From Haliea sp. (GTDB lineage: Bacteria; Pseudomonadota; Gammaproteobacteria; Pseudomonadales; Halieaceae), in the NCBI GenBank assembly GCA_024642265.1, contig JAHEBL010000004.1:1-64000 (forward strand): a stretch of DNA of 64,000 bases, given 5' to 3'. Below are positions 895 to 56,613 of this stretch, piece by piece. The number at the start of each line of letters is the position of its first letter. Within the stretch, counting starts at the first letter, position 1. The notes below the pieces were generated by a model. That model saw only the letters and a list, made by a program, of their open reading frames with translations, ran no database searches and was not told where the DNA came from. A program made the position numbers and the translations under genes.

Positions 895-1551
895 TCAGGC
901 CAGCACGCGCTGCAACCAGCGGGATATGTCCGCAACTTCATCCGCGCAGACGGCGTGTTCCATGGGGTAGCTGCTGTACTCCACCTGATACCCTCTGGCC
1001 GTCAGGTCCTCGCGGGCTTGCTGACCCATACGCTCCGGCACCATCGGGTCCCGGGTCCCGTGACAAATAAAAATGGGCAGGTTCCGGTTCGCGCTGTTCG
1101 GGGTGATGGTCTGCCGCGTAGCAAAATAGCTGGACATGCATAGCAGGCCTGCCAGGGGCTGCATATAGGTCAACGCAGTCTGGTAGGCCACCGCGCCGCC
1201 CTGGGAAAAACCGGCGAGTACGATGCGCTGGCTGGGAATACCGCGGTCGGTCTCCCGGTCAACCAGCAGCCGAATGCTTTCCGCCGATGCGATCAGTTGG
1301 GCCGCGTCGATTTTCCGGTCGATGCTGATTTCGGTGATGTCATACCATGCCGGCATGACATAGCCGCTGTTGATAGTGACCGGTATTGCGGGTGCGTTGG
1401 GAAAAACGAACCGCACTGCCATTTCAGCGGGTAATCGCAACTCCCGCACCATTGGCACAAAGTCGTTGCCATCAGCCCCAAGGCCGTGCAGCAGGATGAC
1501 GGTGGCACTGGCGGGGGAATCTGGTTCGATATCAATACACGGTAACAGCAT
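895..1551 (-). CDS. carboxylesterase/phospholipase-type alpha/beta hydrolase
   Basis: 218 residues, the usual length for the small carboxylesterase / acyl-protein thioesterase-like family. An LLHGLGADGNDF oxyanion-hole segment lies near residues 20-31. The nucleophile elbow GFSQGG gives Ser116, with Asp168 in HGTRDPMVP and His199 in PMEHAV completing the triad. No signal peptide is visible, so it should be cytoplasmic. Family members hydrolyse short-chain esters or lysophospholipids; the substrate here is not predictable. It is divergent from the YchJ-like gene and is not in an operon. Confidence 0.9.
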   Translation of the reverse strand: MLLPCIDIEPDSPASATVILLHGLGADGNDFVPMVRELRLPAEMAVRFVFPNAPAIPVTINSGYVMPAWYDITEISIDRKIDAAQLIASAESIRLLVDRETDRGIPSQRIVLAGFSQGGAVAYQTALTYMQPLAGLLCMSSYFATRQTITPNSANRNLPIFICHGTRDPMVPERMGQQAREDLTARGYQVEYSSYPMEHAVCADEVADISRWLQRVLA

Positions 1552-1685
1552 GTCTGATGGACCGGGGGAGATAGTGTCTGGCCCCTTAGTATATAGGCGC
1601 CCTGCCCGGCCGACGATTTATTTTCCCTGTGGGCGCAAACGCGCGACAATGGGCGCGTTAAAAAACCCGGACGGAATTCTACTCT

Positions 1686-2084
1686 ATGCCTGACAACTGC
1701 CCATGCGGGAGCAACAAGGCTTTCGATGCCTGCTGTGGACGCTTTCTCAATGCCGGGCAACAGGCCGCGACGCCAGAGCAACTGATGCGCTCGCGTTACT
1801 GCGCTTACGCCCTGGGGGGGCATGGCGATTACCTGTTGCACACCTGGTTCCCTGCTACCGCGGGAGGCCTTACGGTCGAGGCACTGTCGCAACGTGACTG
1901 CGACTGGATCGGTCTCACGGTGCTCGCCAAACAGCAACGCGGTGACAAGGGTATGGTGGAATTCAGGGCCCGCTATCACGACCGCAACGGACACGAACGG
2001 GTGATGCATGAAAAGTCGGTATTTCAGCGCATCGCCGGGCGCTGGCTCTATGTCGGGGGCGAGGTAAACTCGTCAACGGCCTGA
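1686..2084 (+). CDS. YchJ family (UPF0225) SEC-C motif protein
   Basis: 132 residues. The N-terminal C5-x-C7...C16-C17 cluster (CPCGSNKAFDACCG) is the SEC-C-type zinc-binding motif. It is followed by the NTF2-like YchJ core, with the landmarks LMRSRYCAYALG, YLLHTWFP and MVEFRARY near the expected spacing. The biochemical role of YchJ is not established. It lies 13 nt upstream of the flavoprotein gene on the same strand, so the two may be cotranscribed. Confidence 0.9.
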   Translation: MPDNCPCGSNKAFDACCGRFLNAGQQAATPEQLMRSRYCAYALGGHGDYLLHTWFPATAGGLTVEALSQRDCDWIGLTVLAKQQRGDKGMVEFRARYHDRNGHERVMHEKSVFQRIAGRWLYVGGEVNSSTA

Positions 2085-2097
2085 CGCCGCTACCCTC

Positions 2098-3351
2098 ATG
2101 CCGGACAAGGCCGGGCAATACGATGTGGTTGTACTTGGCGGAGGCGCCGCAGGGCTTATGTGCGCGCTTACCGCGGGCCAACGCGGCCGGCGGGTACTGG
2201 TGCTCGAAAAAGCCAACAAGGTGGGCAAGAAAATCCTCATGTCCGGCGGGGGGCGCTGTAACTTTACCAACCTGGTGGTCGAAGCCGATAACTTCATCTG
2301 CGCAAATCCGCATTTCTGCAAATCCGCCCTTAGCCGCTATACCCAATGGGACTTCATTGCCATGGTGGATCGTCACGGCATTGCATACGAGGAGCGCAAA
2401 CACACACAGTTGTTTTGTCTCAATTCCGCCAGAGACATTCTGACCATGTTGCTGAGTGAATGCGACCTGGCGGGGGTTGAGATCAGGACCCGGTGTGAAA
2501 TCGTGTCGGTTGAAACCGCGGCAAATGAATGCGGCACAAGTGAGGCAGCATCCGCGACTCTTGCTCCGGGTTACCGACTGGTGATGAGGCAATCAGACAA
2601 TGCGGAAGTAATCGACTGCGCATCGCTGGTAGTGGCCACGGGGGCGCTGTCTATTCCGACCCTGGGCGGCAGCGGCCAGGGTTATGAAATAGGCAGCCAG
2701 TTCGGCCTGACGCTGACGCCACGCCGCGCGGGACTGGTCCCCTTCATGTTCAGCGATGCCACCAGAGAACTGTGCGAGCGCCTCGCGGGCGTATCGCTGG
2801 AAGTAGCAGTGAATTGCAATCGACGAACATTCACCGAAAATATTCTTTTTACACATCGGGGTATCAGCGGACCCGCCAGCCTGCAGATTTCCAACTACTG
2901 GCACCCGGGCGACCCTCTGTCTATCGACCTGTTGCCCGGCCAGGATGCCACCGCCTGGCTGATCGACTGTAAAGCGCAACAGCGCAAGGCCAGGCTCAGT
3001 TTCGTGCTGCAAAAGCAACTGCCGAGGGCGCTGGTAGCGGAATTGCAGGCGCTGTGGTGGCCCGCCATGGCGGAGACCGCGCTGGGCGAATTCAGCGACC
3101 GGCAGCTGGCGGAGATCGGCGGGCAGCTTAACAGGTGGCAGCTAAAGCCATCCGCGACGGAGGGCTACCGGACCGCGGAGGTAACCCTGGGCGGCATTGA
3201 CACCGACGCTATCAGCTCAAAAACCATGCAGGCCCGGCAGCATCCCGGACTGTTCTTCGTTGGAGAAGTGCTGGACGTCACCGGACACCTGGGGGGCTTC
3301 AACTTCCAGTGGGCCTGGTCTTCCGGCTATACCGCTGGGCTGTACGCCTAG
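2098..3351 (+). CDS. BaiN/HI0933-type NAD(P)/FAD-dependent oxidoreductase
   Basis: 417 residues. A dinucleotide-binding GGGAAGL motif sits at residues 14-20, followed by EKANKVGKKILMSGGGRCNF, the hallmark of the HI0933/BaiN/RdsA flavoprotein family. The C-terminus GEVLDVTGHLGGFNFQWAW closes the FAD site and is equally typical. The protein binds FAD and is expected to be cytosolic. Physiological substrates are unknown for most members; the gut BaiN reduces a bile-acid intermediate, and that activity should not be assumed here. It starts 13 nt after the YchJ-like gene. Confidence 0.9.
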   Translation: MPDKAGQYDVVVLGGGAAGLMCALTAGQRGRRVLVLEKANKVGKKILMSGGGRCNFTNLVVEADNFICANPHFCKSALSRYTQWDFIAMVDRHGIAYEERKHTQLFCLNSARDILTMLLSECDLAGVEIRTRCEIVSVETAANECGTSEAASATLAPGYRLVMRQSDNAEVIDCASLVVATGALSIPTLGGSGQGYEIGSQFGLTLTPRRAGLVPFMFSDATRELCERLAGVSLEVAVNCNRRTFTENILFTHRGISGPASLQISNYWHPGDPLSIDLLPGQDATAWLIDCKAQQRKARLSFVLQKQLPRALVAELQALWWPAMAETALGEFSDRQLAEIGGQLNRWQLKPSATEGYRTAEVTLGGIDTDAISSKTMQARQHPGLFFVGEVLDVTGHLGGFNFQWAWSSGYTAGLYA

Positions 3352-51991: not shown

Positions 51992-52987
51992 TCAGGAACG
52001 GGAGAGGCCGACGTTATTTTTCTGCAATACCTGCTCGGCGCGATAACTGGAGCGCACGAACACGCCGGACACGACTTCCATAAAACCCCGCTCGAGGCCC
52101 CACTCCCGGTATTTCTCGAATTCATCGGGTGTGACCCAGCGAGCAATCGGGTAATGATGCGCGGTAGGCTGCAGGTACTGGCCGAAAGTGAGGATATCCA
52201 CGGACGCGGCGCGCAAGTCGTCCATCGCCTCGAGGATCTCTTCCTCGGTCTCGCCGAGTCCCAGCATCAGGCTGGTCTTGGTCAGCACGTCGGGGCGGTA
52301 CTGCCTGGCATGGGCCAGCACCGCCAGTGTCTGCTCGTAACTGGCCCTGGGGTCCCGCACGGGATGGGTCAATCGCCTGACGGTCTCCACATTCTGGGCA
52401 AAGACCTCGATGCCAGAATCGAGTACGGTCTCGACATCGGCCAGCACACCCAGAAAATCCGGTGTCAGTGCCTCCACGGCGGTATGGGGATTCAGTGCTT
52501 TCACCTGTCGCACACAATCGGCGTAATGACCGGCACCGCCGTCGGGCAGGTCGTCGCGGTTGACGGAGGTGAGCACCACGTAGCGGAGCTTCATCAACTG
52601 CACTGAGCGCGCAGTGTTGGCCGGCTCGTCCGGGTCGAGCCAGCCCTTCGGGTTACCGGTATTCACGGCGCAGAATCGACAGGCGCGGGTGCAGACATCC
52701 CCCATCAGCATGATGGTGGCCGTACCGGAACTCCAGCACTCGCTCATATTCGGGCACTTGGCCTCTTCGCAAACCGTGGCCAGTCGATGTTCGCGAACGA
52801 TACCCTGGACCCTGTCGAAATTGGCGCCGCCCTGCACCCGCACCCGCAGCCATTCGGGCTTGCGCTGGCGCGGGCCCTCCGCCCGGCCGGCCTTGACGCC
52901 GTCCTTGATGGCGGTGATGCCCTTTTCGTTGACGAATTTCTCACCACTGGCGACATGGACAACCGGTATGAGTTCACTGTCTGGCAT
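51992..52987 (-). CDS. lipA: lipoyl synthase
   Basis: 331 residues. The radical-SAM cluster is Cys99-x3-Cys103-x2-Cys106 (CTRACRFC) and the auxiliary cluster Cys73, Cys78, Cys84 ([12 protein letters not shown]). The C-terminal [11 protein letters not shown] supplies the conserved RSSY serine ligand. It inserts two sulfurs into octanoyl-E2 or GcvH to form lipoate. lipB is not adjacent. It is divergent from frdC across 165 nt. Confidence 0.96.
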
Positions 52988-53152
52988 GACCTGGGACCTC
53001 GGGGCTGGTATACATTAAACGGCAATTGTACCCTAATGGAGCGCAGCGAGCCCACGGCGTCAATATATGGACACTTGAGGCAGAACAAGGTTGGGCCAGA
53101 CACGCTGGGTTAGTATCATCGGTCAAATAAGTGAGCACGTGTATGGCAGGCG

Positions 53153-53887
53153 ATGACTGGCAAGCTTGACAGGGGACCAGCCCGGGCAGACATTCTGCAG
53201 AGCCTCAGCGGCCTGCTGCTGGTGCTGTTCATCTGGGGCCACATGTTCTTTGAATCCAGCATTTTGCTGGGCAAGGACGCGATGTACCGGGTGACGAGGA
53301 TGTTCGAGGGTGAGCCCCTGTTCGGCAAGCCCTACCCGCTGCTGGTATCAGGTGTCGCGGCCATCATCTTCGTCCTGATCGCCGTCCACGCCGTGCTCGC
53401 GCTGCGAAAATTTCCCGGCAGCCATCGCCAGTACCGGGAATTCAACGCCCACATGGGCGCCATGCGACACCCCGACACCACCCTGTGGTACGTGCAAGTG
53501 CTTACCGGATTTGCCCTGTTTTTCCTGGCCTCGGCACACCTGCTGGTCGTGTTCCTGCAACCGGACAATATCGGCCCCTATGCCTCCTCCGACAGGATCT
53601 GGAGCGGGCGTTTCTGGATACTCTATGCGCTGCTGCTGGTCTGCGTGCACCTGCATGCGGGCATCGGCATCTACCGCCTGGCAATGAAGTGGGGCCCCAT
53701 TCCCGCCGCCGGTTCAAAAGTGGCCCGGCGCCGGCTCAAACTGGCCATGTGGGGCATCATCGCCTTCTTCCTGTGCCTGGGAACCGCCAGCCTTGCCACC
53801 TACATGTACATCGGCCGTGACCACGCACCGCATGCCGGGGAGCGTTACCTGCCGGCCCACCAACAGGCGCTGCCGGGAAACACATAG
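53153..53887 (+). CDS. frdC: fumarate reductase cytochrome b subunit, type B (dihaem)
   Basis: 244 residues, five transmembrane helices. His30, His79, His129 and His168 sit at exactly the spacings of the Wolinella FrdC haem ligands (44, 93, 143, 182), so two b haems are expected. Glu52 falls where Wolinella Glu66 (menaquinol site) lies. Position 166, equivalent to the E-pathway Glu180, is His. This integral subunit binds menaquinone and links the periplasm side to FrdB. The order C-A-B is that of epsilonproteobacteria, not of E. coli frdABCD. Confidence 0.9.
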   Translation: MTGKLDRGPARADILQSLSGLLLVLFIWGHMFFESSILLGKDAMYRVTRMFEGEPLFGKPYPLLVSGVAAIIFVLIAVHAVLALRKFPGSHRQYREFNAHMGAMRHPDTTLWYVQVLTGFALFFLASAHLLVVFLQPDNIGPYASSDRIWSGRFWILYALLLVCVHLHAGIGIYRLAMKWGPIPAAGSKVARRRLKLAMWGIIAFFLCLGTASLATYMYIGRDHAPHAGERYLPAHQQALPGNT

Positions 53888-53890
53888 TCC

Positions 53891-55870
53891 ATGCAGATAA
53901 TTTACACTGATGTACTGGTGATAGGCGGCGGTCTCGCGGGACAGCGCGCGGCCATCGGCGCCAAACGCCGCGGCCACGATGTCATCGTGCTCAGCCTGGT
54001 GCCGGCCAAGCGCTCGCATTCCGCCGCCGCCCAGGGCGGCATGCAGGCCAGCCTGGGCAATTGCCTGGGTGCCGCCGGTGACAACGAGGACATTCATTTT
54101 GCCGATACCGTGCGCGGCAGCGACTGGGGTGCGGACCAGGAAGTGGTGCGCATGTTCACCCACACGGCACCCAAGGCAATACGGGAGCTGGCCGCCTGGG
54201 GCGTACCCTGGAACAGGGTGGCTCGCGGCGAGCGCGAGATTACCGTGGATGGCCAGAGGAAGACCATCTCGGAACCCGATGCCGCCCACGGCCTGATCAC
54301 CAGCCGCAATTTCGGTGGCACCCAGAAATGGCGCGCCTGTTACGTGTCCGACGGCACCGGACACGCCATGCTCTACACCATGAGTAACCAGGCCATCGCC
54401 GCCAATATTCCAGTGCATGAACGCATGGAGGCACTTGCGCTGATTCACGCCGACGGGCGCTGTCACGGCGCCATCGTGCGCAACCTGATGACCGGTGAAT
54501 TGCTGGCCTATGTAGCCAGGGCCACCTGTATAGCCACCGGTGGCTTCGGCCGCATCTACCGGGTTTCCACCAACGCCATCATCAACGAGGGGATGGGCGC
54601 CGCCATCGCCCTGGAAACCGGTGTGGCGACGCTCGGCAACATGGAAGCGATCCAGTTCCATCCGACCGGCATCTTCCCCGCGGGCATCCTGGTAACCGAG
54701 GGCTGTCGCGGCGACGGCGGCCTGCTGCTGGATTGCAATGAACACCGCTTCATGCCCGACTACGAACCGGAAAAAAAGGAACTGGCCTCCAGGGACGTGG
54801 TATCGCGCCGCATGGAGGAGCATATCGGCGCGGGTCACGGCGTGAAAAGCCGCTTTGGCGAACACCTGTGGCTGGATATCCGCCTGCTGGGGGCGGACCA
54901 CATCAACAACAACCTGCGCGAGGTCAAGGAGATATGCCAGTACTTCCTCGGTATCGACCCCGTGCGGGAGCTGATACCGGTGCGCCCCGCCCAGCACTAT
55001 TCCATGGGCGGCGTACGCACCAACCACCGCGGCGAGAGTCCGCAGCTGCAGGGTCTGTTCGCAGCGGGTGAGGCGGCCTGCTGGGACATGCACGGTTTCA
55101 ACCGGCTGGGCGGCAATTCGGTTGCAGAAACGGTGGTGGCGGGCATGATCGTGGGCGATACCATTGCCGACTTTTGTGACTCCACGGCGGGTGCCCTCCA
55201 ACTCTCCAGCGCCCTGGTGCAGGAATTCGGTGAGCGCGAGCGACGCCGGCTGGCAGAGATTGCCAACGGCAAGGGGCGCGAGAGCGCGTTCGAGCTCGCC
55301 CGTCTCATGCAGGAGACCATGACCGCGCAGGTGGGTATCTTCCGCGAAGGCGAGCGCCTTGAACAGGCGGTCGCCAGCTTGCAGGAATTACAACTGCGCA
55401 GCCGCAATATCGGCCTGCGCAGCAGCGCACCCGGGGCCAATCCCGAACTGGTTACAGCCTACCGGGTCCAGCGGATGCTCAAGCTGGCCCAGTGTGTGGC
55501 CTATGGCGCCCTGCAGCGCACGGAAAGCCGCGGCGCCCACTACCGCGCCGACCATCCCCGCCGGGACGACCTCAACTGGATGCGCCGGACTCTCGCCAGC
55601 TGGCCGTCGGCGGACGCCCGGCTGCCGGTGCTGACGTATGAACCGCTGGACATCATGAAAATGGAACTGCCGCCGGGCTGGCGCGGCTATGGCGCACGGG
55701 ACTACATCGAGCACCCCGACACCGGGGTACGGCAGCAGCAGGTGGATGCGATTGGCGGTGGCCTGGACCGCGCTGACCGACACACCCGCCAGGAGGCACT
55801 GATGCCCTTCCGGCACCTGCTGCCGGAACACCTGCGCAACAACAACGAGCGCCTGGGGGAGGAATCATGA
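53891..55870 (+). CDS. frdA: fumarate reductase/succinate dehydrogenase flavoprotein subunit
   Basis: 659 residues, starting 3 nt after frdC. The covalent-FAD His43 lies in [19 protein letters not shown], the same number as in Wolinella. The FAD fold opens [14 protein letters not shown]. The catalytic segments [10 protein letters not shown] and [10 protein letters not shown] are intact, as is the capping [15 protein letters not shown]. It interconverts fumarate and succinate on the cytoplasmic side. Overlaps frdB by 4 nt. Confidence 0.94.
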
Positions 55871-56613
55871 ACCGGATCCCGCTGCGCCAGGCGGCGCGCA
55901 CCCTGCGCATACAGATACTGCGCCACAACCCCCGGGATCCCGACAGCCAACCGCGCTTGCAGACCTTCGAGATCGAGGAGGCGGATGCGATGACGCTGTT
56001 CATCGCCCTGACCGAGATCCGGGAGCGGCAGGATCCCTCCCTGCAATTCGATTTTGTCTGTCGCGCGGGCATTTGCGGCAGTTGCGGCATGATCATCAAC
56101 GGCCGCCCGGGCCTGGCCTGTCGCACCCTGACGAGAGATCTCCCTGAACAGATTACGCTGGCTCCCCTGCCCGCCTTCGAGCTGATCGGCGATCTCTCGG
56201 TCAACACCGGCAAGTGGATGCGCGGCATGTCCGAGCGACTCGAGACATGGGTACACAGCCAGAACCTCGAAAGCCTGGACATCGACGCCATGGAAGCCGC
56301 CATGGAACCGGAACTCGCCGAGCAGATTTACGAGCTGGAGCGCTGCATCGAGTGCGGCTGCTGCGTGGCCGCCTGCGGCACCGCCAGGATGCGCGAGGAC
56401 TTTGTCGGGGCCGTGGGTCTCAACCAGGTAACCCGGTTTCGCCTGGACCCCCGGGACGAGCGCAGCGATGCGGCATTTTATGAACTGGTGGGGGACGAGA
56501 GCGGCGTATTCGGCTGCATGACACTACTGGGCTGCGAGGACATGTGCCCCAAGGACCTGCCACTGGCCACCCAGATTGCATTCCTGCGTCGCCGTATGGC
56601 GGCTACCACCTGA
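55867..56613 (+). CDS. frdB: fumarate reductase iron-sulfur subunit
   Basis: 248 residues. 2Fe-2S ligands are Cys65, Cys70, Cys73 and Cys85 (CRAGICGSC...C). The 4Fe-4S and 3Fe-4S clusters use [11 protein letters not shown] and [12 protein letters not shown]. The stretch [17 protein letters not shown] and the [11 protein letters not shown] block read almost like the Wolinella/Campylobacter protein. It carries electrons between FrdA flavin and the FrdC haems. Cotranscribed with frdCA. Confidence 0.94.

Follow-up and report, generated by a model that had tools for sequence, protein, structure and literature searches.

The charge balance of dihaem complex II has long been argued, and the basis of that argument is largely Wolinella mutants. 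The window analysed here, the whole stretch of 64,000 nucleotides from Haliea sp., encodes an enzyme of this kind in which the residue that defines the accepted mechanism is missing. The inward passage of protons in Wolinella is ascribed to Glu180 together with the propionate of the distal haem, and is considered to make turnover electroneutral (PMC10739449, PMC6175931; these and all other PMC sources are cited from excerpts). The locus thus raises the question of what stands in the place of this proton path and whether the enzyme could still be compensated.

The frdCAB operon and its cytochrome subunit

The frdC reading frame encodes a product of 244 residues that scores 321.5 bits against NCBIfam NF010072 (cut-off 187), and each of the C, A and B subunits lies above the cut-off of its curated NCBIfam fumarate reductase family (Table 1). 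The genes are all on the forward strand in the order frdC-frdA-frdB, as expected of a type B FrdCAB operon. Plasmid copies of the gene were searched for with no match at E 1e-5. Upstream, an ORF that we take to be lipoyl-synthase-like has its start about 165 bases from frdC on the opposite strand, so that the two form a divergent gene pair.

FrdC residues 4-224 align without gaps to residues 18-238 of 2BS2_C (phmmer, E 2.1e-56), the Wolinella position being the window residue plus 14; positions are given in Wolinella numbering below. The AF2 model of FrdC (pLDDT 96.1, pTM 0.89) has Wolinella FrdC entries as its top matches, with Z 27.7-29.0 over 234 residues at 42-43 % identity, and on this superposition the helix-V register is sound. 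Alignment and model together point to a C subunit of the Wolinella fold with four His residues for putative haem binding. The sequence-only reading of this DNA had called the protein a type B FrdC with His30, His79, His129 and His168 in the places of the Wolinella haem ligands and Glu52 in that of the menaquinol-site Glu66, and the ungapped alignment bears out each of these assignments at the same offset. Its central observation, that the E-pathway Glu180 is replaced by His166, also stands. The local context is CVHLHAG in the window and AVELHGS in Wolinella, and the alignment to 2BS2_C places no acid at position 180; neither another acidic residue there nor a different helix-V register turned up in the alignment or in the superposed model. 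FrdCAB is therefore of type B by the features tested, but it lies outside the E-pathway mechanism, whose defining residue is absent, and that the compensating proton path is altered was a fair inference.

Two features go beyond that reading. A new carboxylate, Glu34, occupies position 48 on helix I; by helix geometry, it probably lies on the haem-facing side, one helical turn nearer the periplasm than the distal ligand His30. In addition, the putative inward polar relay at positions 213 and 217 of helix VI is absent, these positions being taken by Met199 and Ile203.

Table 1. Positions of the features discussed (coordinates refer to the window unless a locus or genome is named)
Feature	Position	Strand	Remark
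frdC	53153..53887	+	dihaem cytochrome b subunit, type B fumarate reductase / succinate dehydrogenase, Glu48 form
frdA	53891..55870	+	flavoprotein subunit; NCBIfam NF006383, 1113.8 bits, cut-off 663
frdB	55867..56613	+	iron-sulfur subunit; NCBIfam NF010071, 411.9 bits, cut-off 264
His30	53240..53242	+	Wolinella His44, distal haem ligand; ungapped alignment
Glu34	53252..53254	+	Wolinella Val48; new carboxylate, helix I, one turn past distal haem ligand; alignment; codon GAA
Glu52	53306..53308	+	Wolinella Glu66, menaquinol-site Glu, retained; ungapped alignment
His79	53387..53389	+	Wolinella His93, proximal haem ligand; ungapped alignment
His129	53537..53539	+	Wolinella His143, distal haem ligand; ungapped alignment
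His166	53648..53650	+	Wolinella Glu180, E-pathway position; ungapped alignment; codon CAC
His168	53654..53656	+	Wolinella His182, proximal haem ligand; ungapped alignment
Met199	53747..53749	+	equivalent to Lys213 in Wolinella and Glu193 in D. gigas; putative relay residue of helix VI lost; alignment
Ile203	53759..53761	+	Wolinella Ser217; helix-VI hydroxyl position lost; alignment
ORF presumed lipoyl-synthase-like	51992-52987	-	start about 165 bases from frdC
Weak FNR-like box	53075-53088		TTGAGGCAGAACAA; 2 mismatches
FrdC of L019	match 1501-2142		His at Glu66 position, Glu48, Ile180
MenD-like protein (L171)	G459:C103:17163-18389		below cut-off
Tandem frdC loci			L140, L143, L145, L146, L148, L149, L151-L154, L156-L159, L273, L274, L280, L281

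Among known systems, the Wolinella succinogenes QFR (2BS2; E180Q, 2BS3; E180I, 2BS4) shares the fold, the four haem His and the Glu66 equivalent with the window enzyme, as well as the CAB gene order (order from PMC10308238). It differs in that Glu180 has become His, Val48 Glu, Lys213 Met, Ser217 Ile and Met41 Ile in the window. The Desulfovibrio gigas QFR (5XMJ) comes next after Wolinella in structure (Z 21.7) and shares the dihaem FrdC fold, but it keeps Val at position 48, Glu164 (the equivalent of Glu180) and Glu193, which the window does not; Glu193 was aligned to Lys213 via the FrdC of locus L020, D. gigas itself being outside our table of sequences. The Prevotella bryantii QFR is like the window enzyme in having no acid at the Glu180 position, where it has Trp170, and unlike it in that its Glu66-like residue is shifted (PMC10739449). 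The dihaem succinate:menaquinone reductases of Bacillus and Mycobacterium also have no acid at position 180 (for M. smegmatis, PMC7447783); their fold is remoter (6LUM_N, Z 8.4 over 113 residues), and they are described as menaquinone-linked. Dihaem enzymes without an acid at position 180 are thus already known (M. smegmatis Sdh2, PMC7447783; Prevotella QFR, PMC10739449). In the open-licence literature we found no report of the exchange at position 48, of the joint loss at 213 and 217, or of the two forms in one operon.

Linked residues at positions 48, 180, 213 and 217

Searches for relatives covered 283 loci and gave 294 FrdC reading frames; once repeats of the same gene, which were many, had been merged, 243 distinct rows were left, or 244 with Wolinella. 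The contig scan was limited to the best 80 of 321 relatives, and its pattern admitted only Glu or Val at position 48, which hid any other residue in these loci; protein or profile searches, which had no such limit, supplied all further loci, among them the Thr48 rows. Locus L060, titled Arcobacter, belongs to a phylum that we take to be the Campylobacterota; 198 of its 249 genomes matched, and 90 loci were examined. In the family of genome G270, probably the Shewanellaceae, 105 of 116 genomes matched, and 30 loci plus 19 fetched stretches were examined.

Two forms account for nearly all of the rows. Val48 is found with Glu180 in 165 of 244, without exception among the Val48 rows (165/165), and Glu48 is found with a non-acidic residue at 180 in 74, namely Val (36), His (22), Leu (6), Ile (4), Thr (4) or Ala (2). 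Glu at both positions was seen in 0 of the 244 distinct rows. The same rule had held in the first 18 sequences, where Glu48 was always present when Glu180 was absent and Val48 always when Glu180 was present. A strict Glu-for-Glu exchange has five exceptional rows with Glu at neither position, so that the 79 rows lacking Glu180 comprise 74 with Glu48, four with Thr48 (Val180 in 3, Ile180 in 1) and one with Leu48-Ala180. A regular-expression tally had shown Glu at 48 and 180 together in three cases, besides some odd states; these were matches outside helix V or failed matches, and the alignment table was preferred.

In a ranking of alignment columns by their power to tell the two forms apart, positions 213, 217 and 41 came next. 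Lys, Arg or Glu occupies position 213 in 155/165 Val48 rows vs 1/74 Glu48 rows, Ser or Thr occupies position 217 in 154/165 vs 4/74, and Met41 is present in 142/165 vs 0/74. The Val48-Glu180 form therefore has its own exceptions, 10 of 165 rows being without Lys/Arg/Glu213 and 11 without Ser/Thr217. The reverse holds nearer the opposite end of helix VI, where position 230 is polar in 51/74 Glu48 rows vs 6/165 Val48 rows. Lys214, which tells against a plain loss of polarity, is found in 36/74 Glu48 rows vs 5/165 Val48 rows, although it is absent from the 12 Glu48/His180 rows listed; some Glu48 proteins may thus keep the helix-VI lysine shifted by one residue. Lys at 214 instead of 213 was noted in the G270 family's Glu48 rows, as well as in L177, L189, L196 and L204. 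The haem ligands are four His in 243/244 rows and position 66 is Glu in 240/244.

On these comparisons, the conserved event appears to be a coordinated exchange, in which Glu is gained at 48 while Glu180, Lys213 and Ser/Thr217 are lost, and the window FrdC would be an alternative form with the inward half of the E-pathway largely dismantled. The linkage of position 213 with 48 and 180 suggests that this position is part of the path in general. The weight that the sequence-only reading placed on His166 can be kept only in part: position 180 is indeed His in the window, but His is one of several residues found there, the relatives having Val, Leu, Ile, Thr or Ala. As these other residues serve in Glu48-form proteins, a role for His166 as a functional substitute for Glu180 is disfavoured.

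A few rows stand apart. Thr48 with Val or Ile at 180 makes a third FrdC state (L194, L202, L207, L260), and three of the four group on the FrdC tree. The Leu48-Ala180 row is L021, a second FrdC-like gene in genome G294, from which the FrdC of L019 also comes; with Lys for the fourth haem His and Lys at the Glu66 position, it looks like a degenerate or repurposed paralogue. The L019 FrdC itself sits on a long branch (Table 1).

Distribution, history and tandem operons

Of the best 80 among 321 relatives, the closest that are named bear titles such as Haliea, Halioglobus and Pseudohalioglobus. In the source family, the Halieaceae, FrdC was found in 29 of 140 genomes, with His at position 180 in 20 and Glu in 9, so that the His of the window is common among its relatives and both forms occur in one family. 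Glu48 rows were also found in genomes titled Helicobacteraceae and Sulfuricurvum.

The history of the Glu48 form was followed on two trees. The FrdC tree was built from 120 of the 244 rows, leaving out L021 and with the two trait columns removed, and the FrdA tree from 57 of 134 rows under the simple LG+G4 model. On the best FrdC tree, Glu48 needs 5 changes, of which at least 3 are forced by well-supported (starred) branches. The FrdA tree rejects a single clade of Glu48 operons (AU p 0.000186, without the two tandem rows), and its 6 independent pairs all point in the same direction (6/6; sign test p 0.031). The corresponding paired test on FrdC gave p 0.5 from only 2 pairs on starred branches and has no power. 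On these trees, the Glu48 form has thus moved among frd lineages several times, either because the residue exchange was repeated or because frdC was swapped.

It is quite possible, if short of probable, that the form arose only once and spread as frdC was swapped between frd operons, in which case the linkage between positions would be shared descent. The FrdC AU tests reject neither one clade of all Glu48 rows (p 0.221; 116 rows, four long branches dropped) nor the grouping of the Halieaceae with the two Campylobacterota groups (three groups as one clade, p 0.368). As FrdC alone does not reject a single Glu48 origin, the linkage may be largely descent, and tandem frdC copies offer a route for swapping. 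The changes forced on the best FrdC tree speak against a single origin, as does the placement of L052 with Val48 rows of other lineages. Such a history is compatible with any of the mechanistic readings weighed below. L052 comes from a MAG titled Hyphomicrobiales and encodes a FrdC of the Glu48/His180 kind in which Asp replaces Glu66; the locus falls among the other-lineage Val48 rows on both trees, and its placement could reflect a binning error or gene transfer.

Two frdC genes were found in 18 loci from 16 genomes of the G270 family, two of the genomes having been fetched twice. In 18/18, the upstream copy is Glu48-Val180 and the downstream copy Val48-Glu180. The four loci read to the end of the operon (L273, L274, L280 and L281) have the order frdC-frdC-frdA-frdB; it is thus the second, Wolinella-form FrdC that adjoins frdA in these operons, unlike in the window. 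Single-frdC operons are found elsewhere in the family, for example at L275, L279 and L282. Shewanella oneidensis so0396 (frdC) and so0397-9 (frdCAB) are so listed in Table 1 of PMC2262068, and this arrangement is the same as that of the frdCCAB operons here, the link being one of gene order only.

Proton exchange, quinones and the direction of turnover

The sequence-only reading had placed Glu52 at a menaquinol site, and for the source genome a menaquinol reading is not supported, despite the retained Glu66. In its assembly, which is 97.7 % complete so that a gap is possible, MenD had no match over cut-off and MqnA/D no match at all, and across the 140 family genomes MenD was over cut-off in 0 and MqnA/D matched in 0. 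One family genome carries a MenD-like protein (Table 1) at 218 bits against a cut-off of 244.2, the next best in the family reaching 73.8; this may be a true MenD, marking menaquinone in one family member. RquA was likewise over its cut-off of 175 in 0/140 family genomes. The source genome has 28 methyltransferase matches, 10 of which had been named individually before RquA was searched for directly, and its only RquA match has 48.5 bits and lies at the place of UbiE. The RquA model found nothing over cut-off in 14 named control genomes (0/14) and found RquA in 2 of 15 further genomes (305 and 293 bits); among these 15, there was none over cut-off in 3/3 genomes with Glu48/His180 FrdC and in 10/12 with Val48 FrdC. 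Genes for menaquinone- or rhodoquinone-linked fumarate respiration were thus not found, for the three markers and at the completeness given. UbiE and UbiG are present, and by its genes the organism looks ubiquinone-only.

A search for a separate sdhCDAB operon, which the same reading had proposed, was successful. Another contig of the genome carries what we take to be gltA and sdhC-sdhD-sdhA-sdhB-sucA, with sdhC and sdhD also identified by Pfam PF01127; the TCA cycle would therefore be independent of FrdCAB. The potential of ubiquinone is about +110 mV and that of fumarate/succinate about +30 mV, so fumarate reduction would run uphill, and more so for an uncompensated enzyme in an energised cell. 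These energetics lead us to lean, at low confidence, towards succinate oxidation as the usual direction.

Anaerobic control of the window frdC by FNR was considered and set aside. A weak FNR-like box (Table 1), scored against the FNR consensus, ends 64 bases before the frdC start, and it was equalled in 13/100 shuffles of the 300 upstream bases. The sole 1-mismatch match in the window lies elsewhere (0.85 expected), and several Val48 loci have better boxes. Weak boxes of a similar kind precede frdC in L030 and L044.

For the mechanism, we tentatively prefer to see FrdCAB as a dihaem succinate:quinone oxidoreductase / fumarate reductase with an alternative FrdC that exchanges protons outward and is uncompensated. 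The Wolinella form would take up protons close to the distal haem and pass them by Glu180 to positions 217 and 213 on helix VI and on to the cytoplasm, cancelling the charge of electron transfer. In the Glu48 form, this inward half would be replaced by hydrophobic residues or His, and Glu34, predicted to lie beside the distal haem on helix I, would exchange protons with the periplasmic side. The residues, their linkage among the rows examined, the patchy distribution and the operon are direct observations; we infer the membership of positions 213 and 217 in the path, the proton-exchange site, the electrogenicity and the leaning towards succinate oxidation. The sequence-only reading had proposed that the enzyme may be electrogenic or run as a succinate:quinone reductase; an electrogenic enzyme is plausible, and systems described elsewhere point both ways. 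The B. licheniformis SQR, without an E-pathway, is assigned an H+/e- of 1.0 (PMC10308238), and M. smegmatis Sdh2, a dihaem SQR with no acid at 180, is considered to have no canonical E-pathway (PMC7447783). However, the authors describing the P. bryantii QFR, which is without Glu180, still infer that it builds no proton gradient (PMC10739449), so that loss of Glu180 need not mean an electrogenic enzyme.

The P. bryantii case favours a different account, in which Glu34 replaces Glu180 from helix I, protons reach the cytoplasm by some other way and the enzyme stays electroneutral. Mutual exclusion of the two carboxylates is what would be expected of two positions with one job, and the Lys214 of the 36/74 Glu48 rows could belong to another route. 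Polarity is nevertheless lost at 213 in 73/74 Glu48 rows and at 217 in 70/74, the 22 best-separating columns listed contain no gain of inward polarity that all Glu48 groups share, and Glu34, judged from helix order, would lie periplasmward of the distal haem ligand and not inward. We consider such a relocated pathway unlikely, although it deserves to be taken seriously. Alternatively, the exchange could tune the distal site for a different quinone or haem potential, and the E-pathway would then have been lost as a secondary effect. Position 48 is beside the D. gigas helix-I residues that form the pocket of a bound menaquinone (PMC6175931), and the source genome shows none of the three marker genes tested. 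Both forms, however, are found (20 and 9 of 29) in this one family in which MenD, MqnA/D and RquA are at 0/140, and Glu48 also occurs in the Helicobacteraceae- and Sulfuricurvum-titled genomes, whose groups use menaquinone. The form does not simply follow quinone type, a rule that is disfavoured by these data, and tuning of the quinone site appears improbable. Finally, a degenerate or little-used enzyme might have lost its E-pathway by neutral drift, for which the permissive position 180 of the Glu48 form would speak. The near-invariant haem ligands and Glu66 across the 244 rows, the presence of Glu48 in 74 of the 79 rows lacking Glu180 and the scores of all three operon subunits make this very improbable, and it is disfavoured.

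If outward, uncompensated exchange is the right reading, FrdC could have two mutually exclusive wiring states, an inward one with Val48, Glu180, Lys213 and Ser/Thr217 and an outward one with Glu48 and a dry inward half, which would be switched as a unit. The tandem operons would let one cell pair the same catalytic subunits with a membrane anchor of either kind, electroneutral or electrogenic, perhaps even in mixed dimers; this extension is speculative, and we hold it doubtful. Glu193 of D. gigas was proposed as the proton acceptor after Glu164 and called unique to the D. gigas enzyme (PMC6175931), and the present comparison would make position 213 a candidate member of the path beyond D. gigas. 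Four residues can now be named for swapping (48, 180, 213 and 217), and the fact that the two forms do not mix among the relatives examined makes the charge-balance question directly testable. For the Halieaceae and the other lineages concerned, linked natural substitutions, present even within one operon, would serve to predict whether a given enzyme is compensated.
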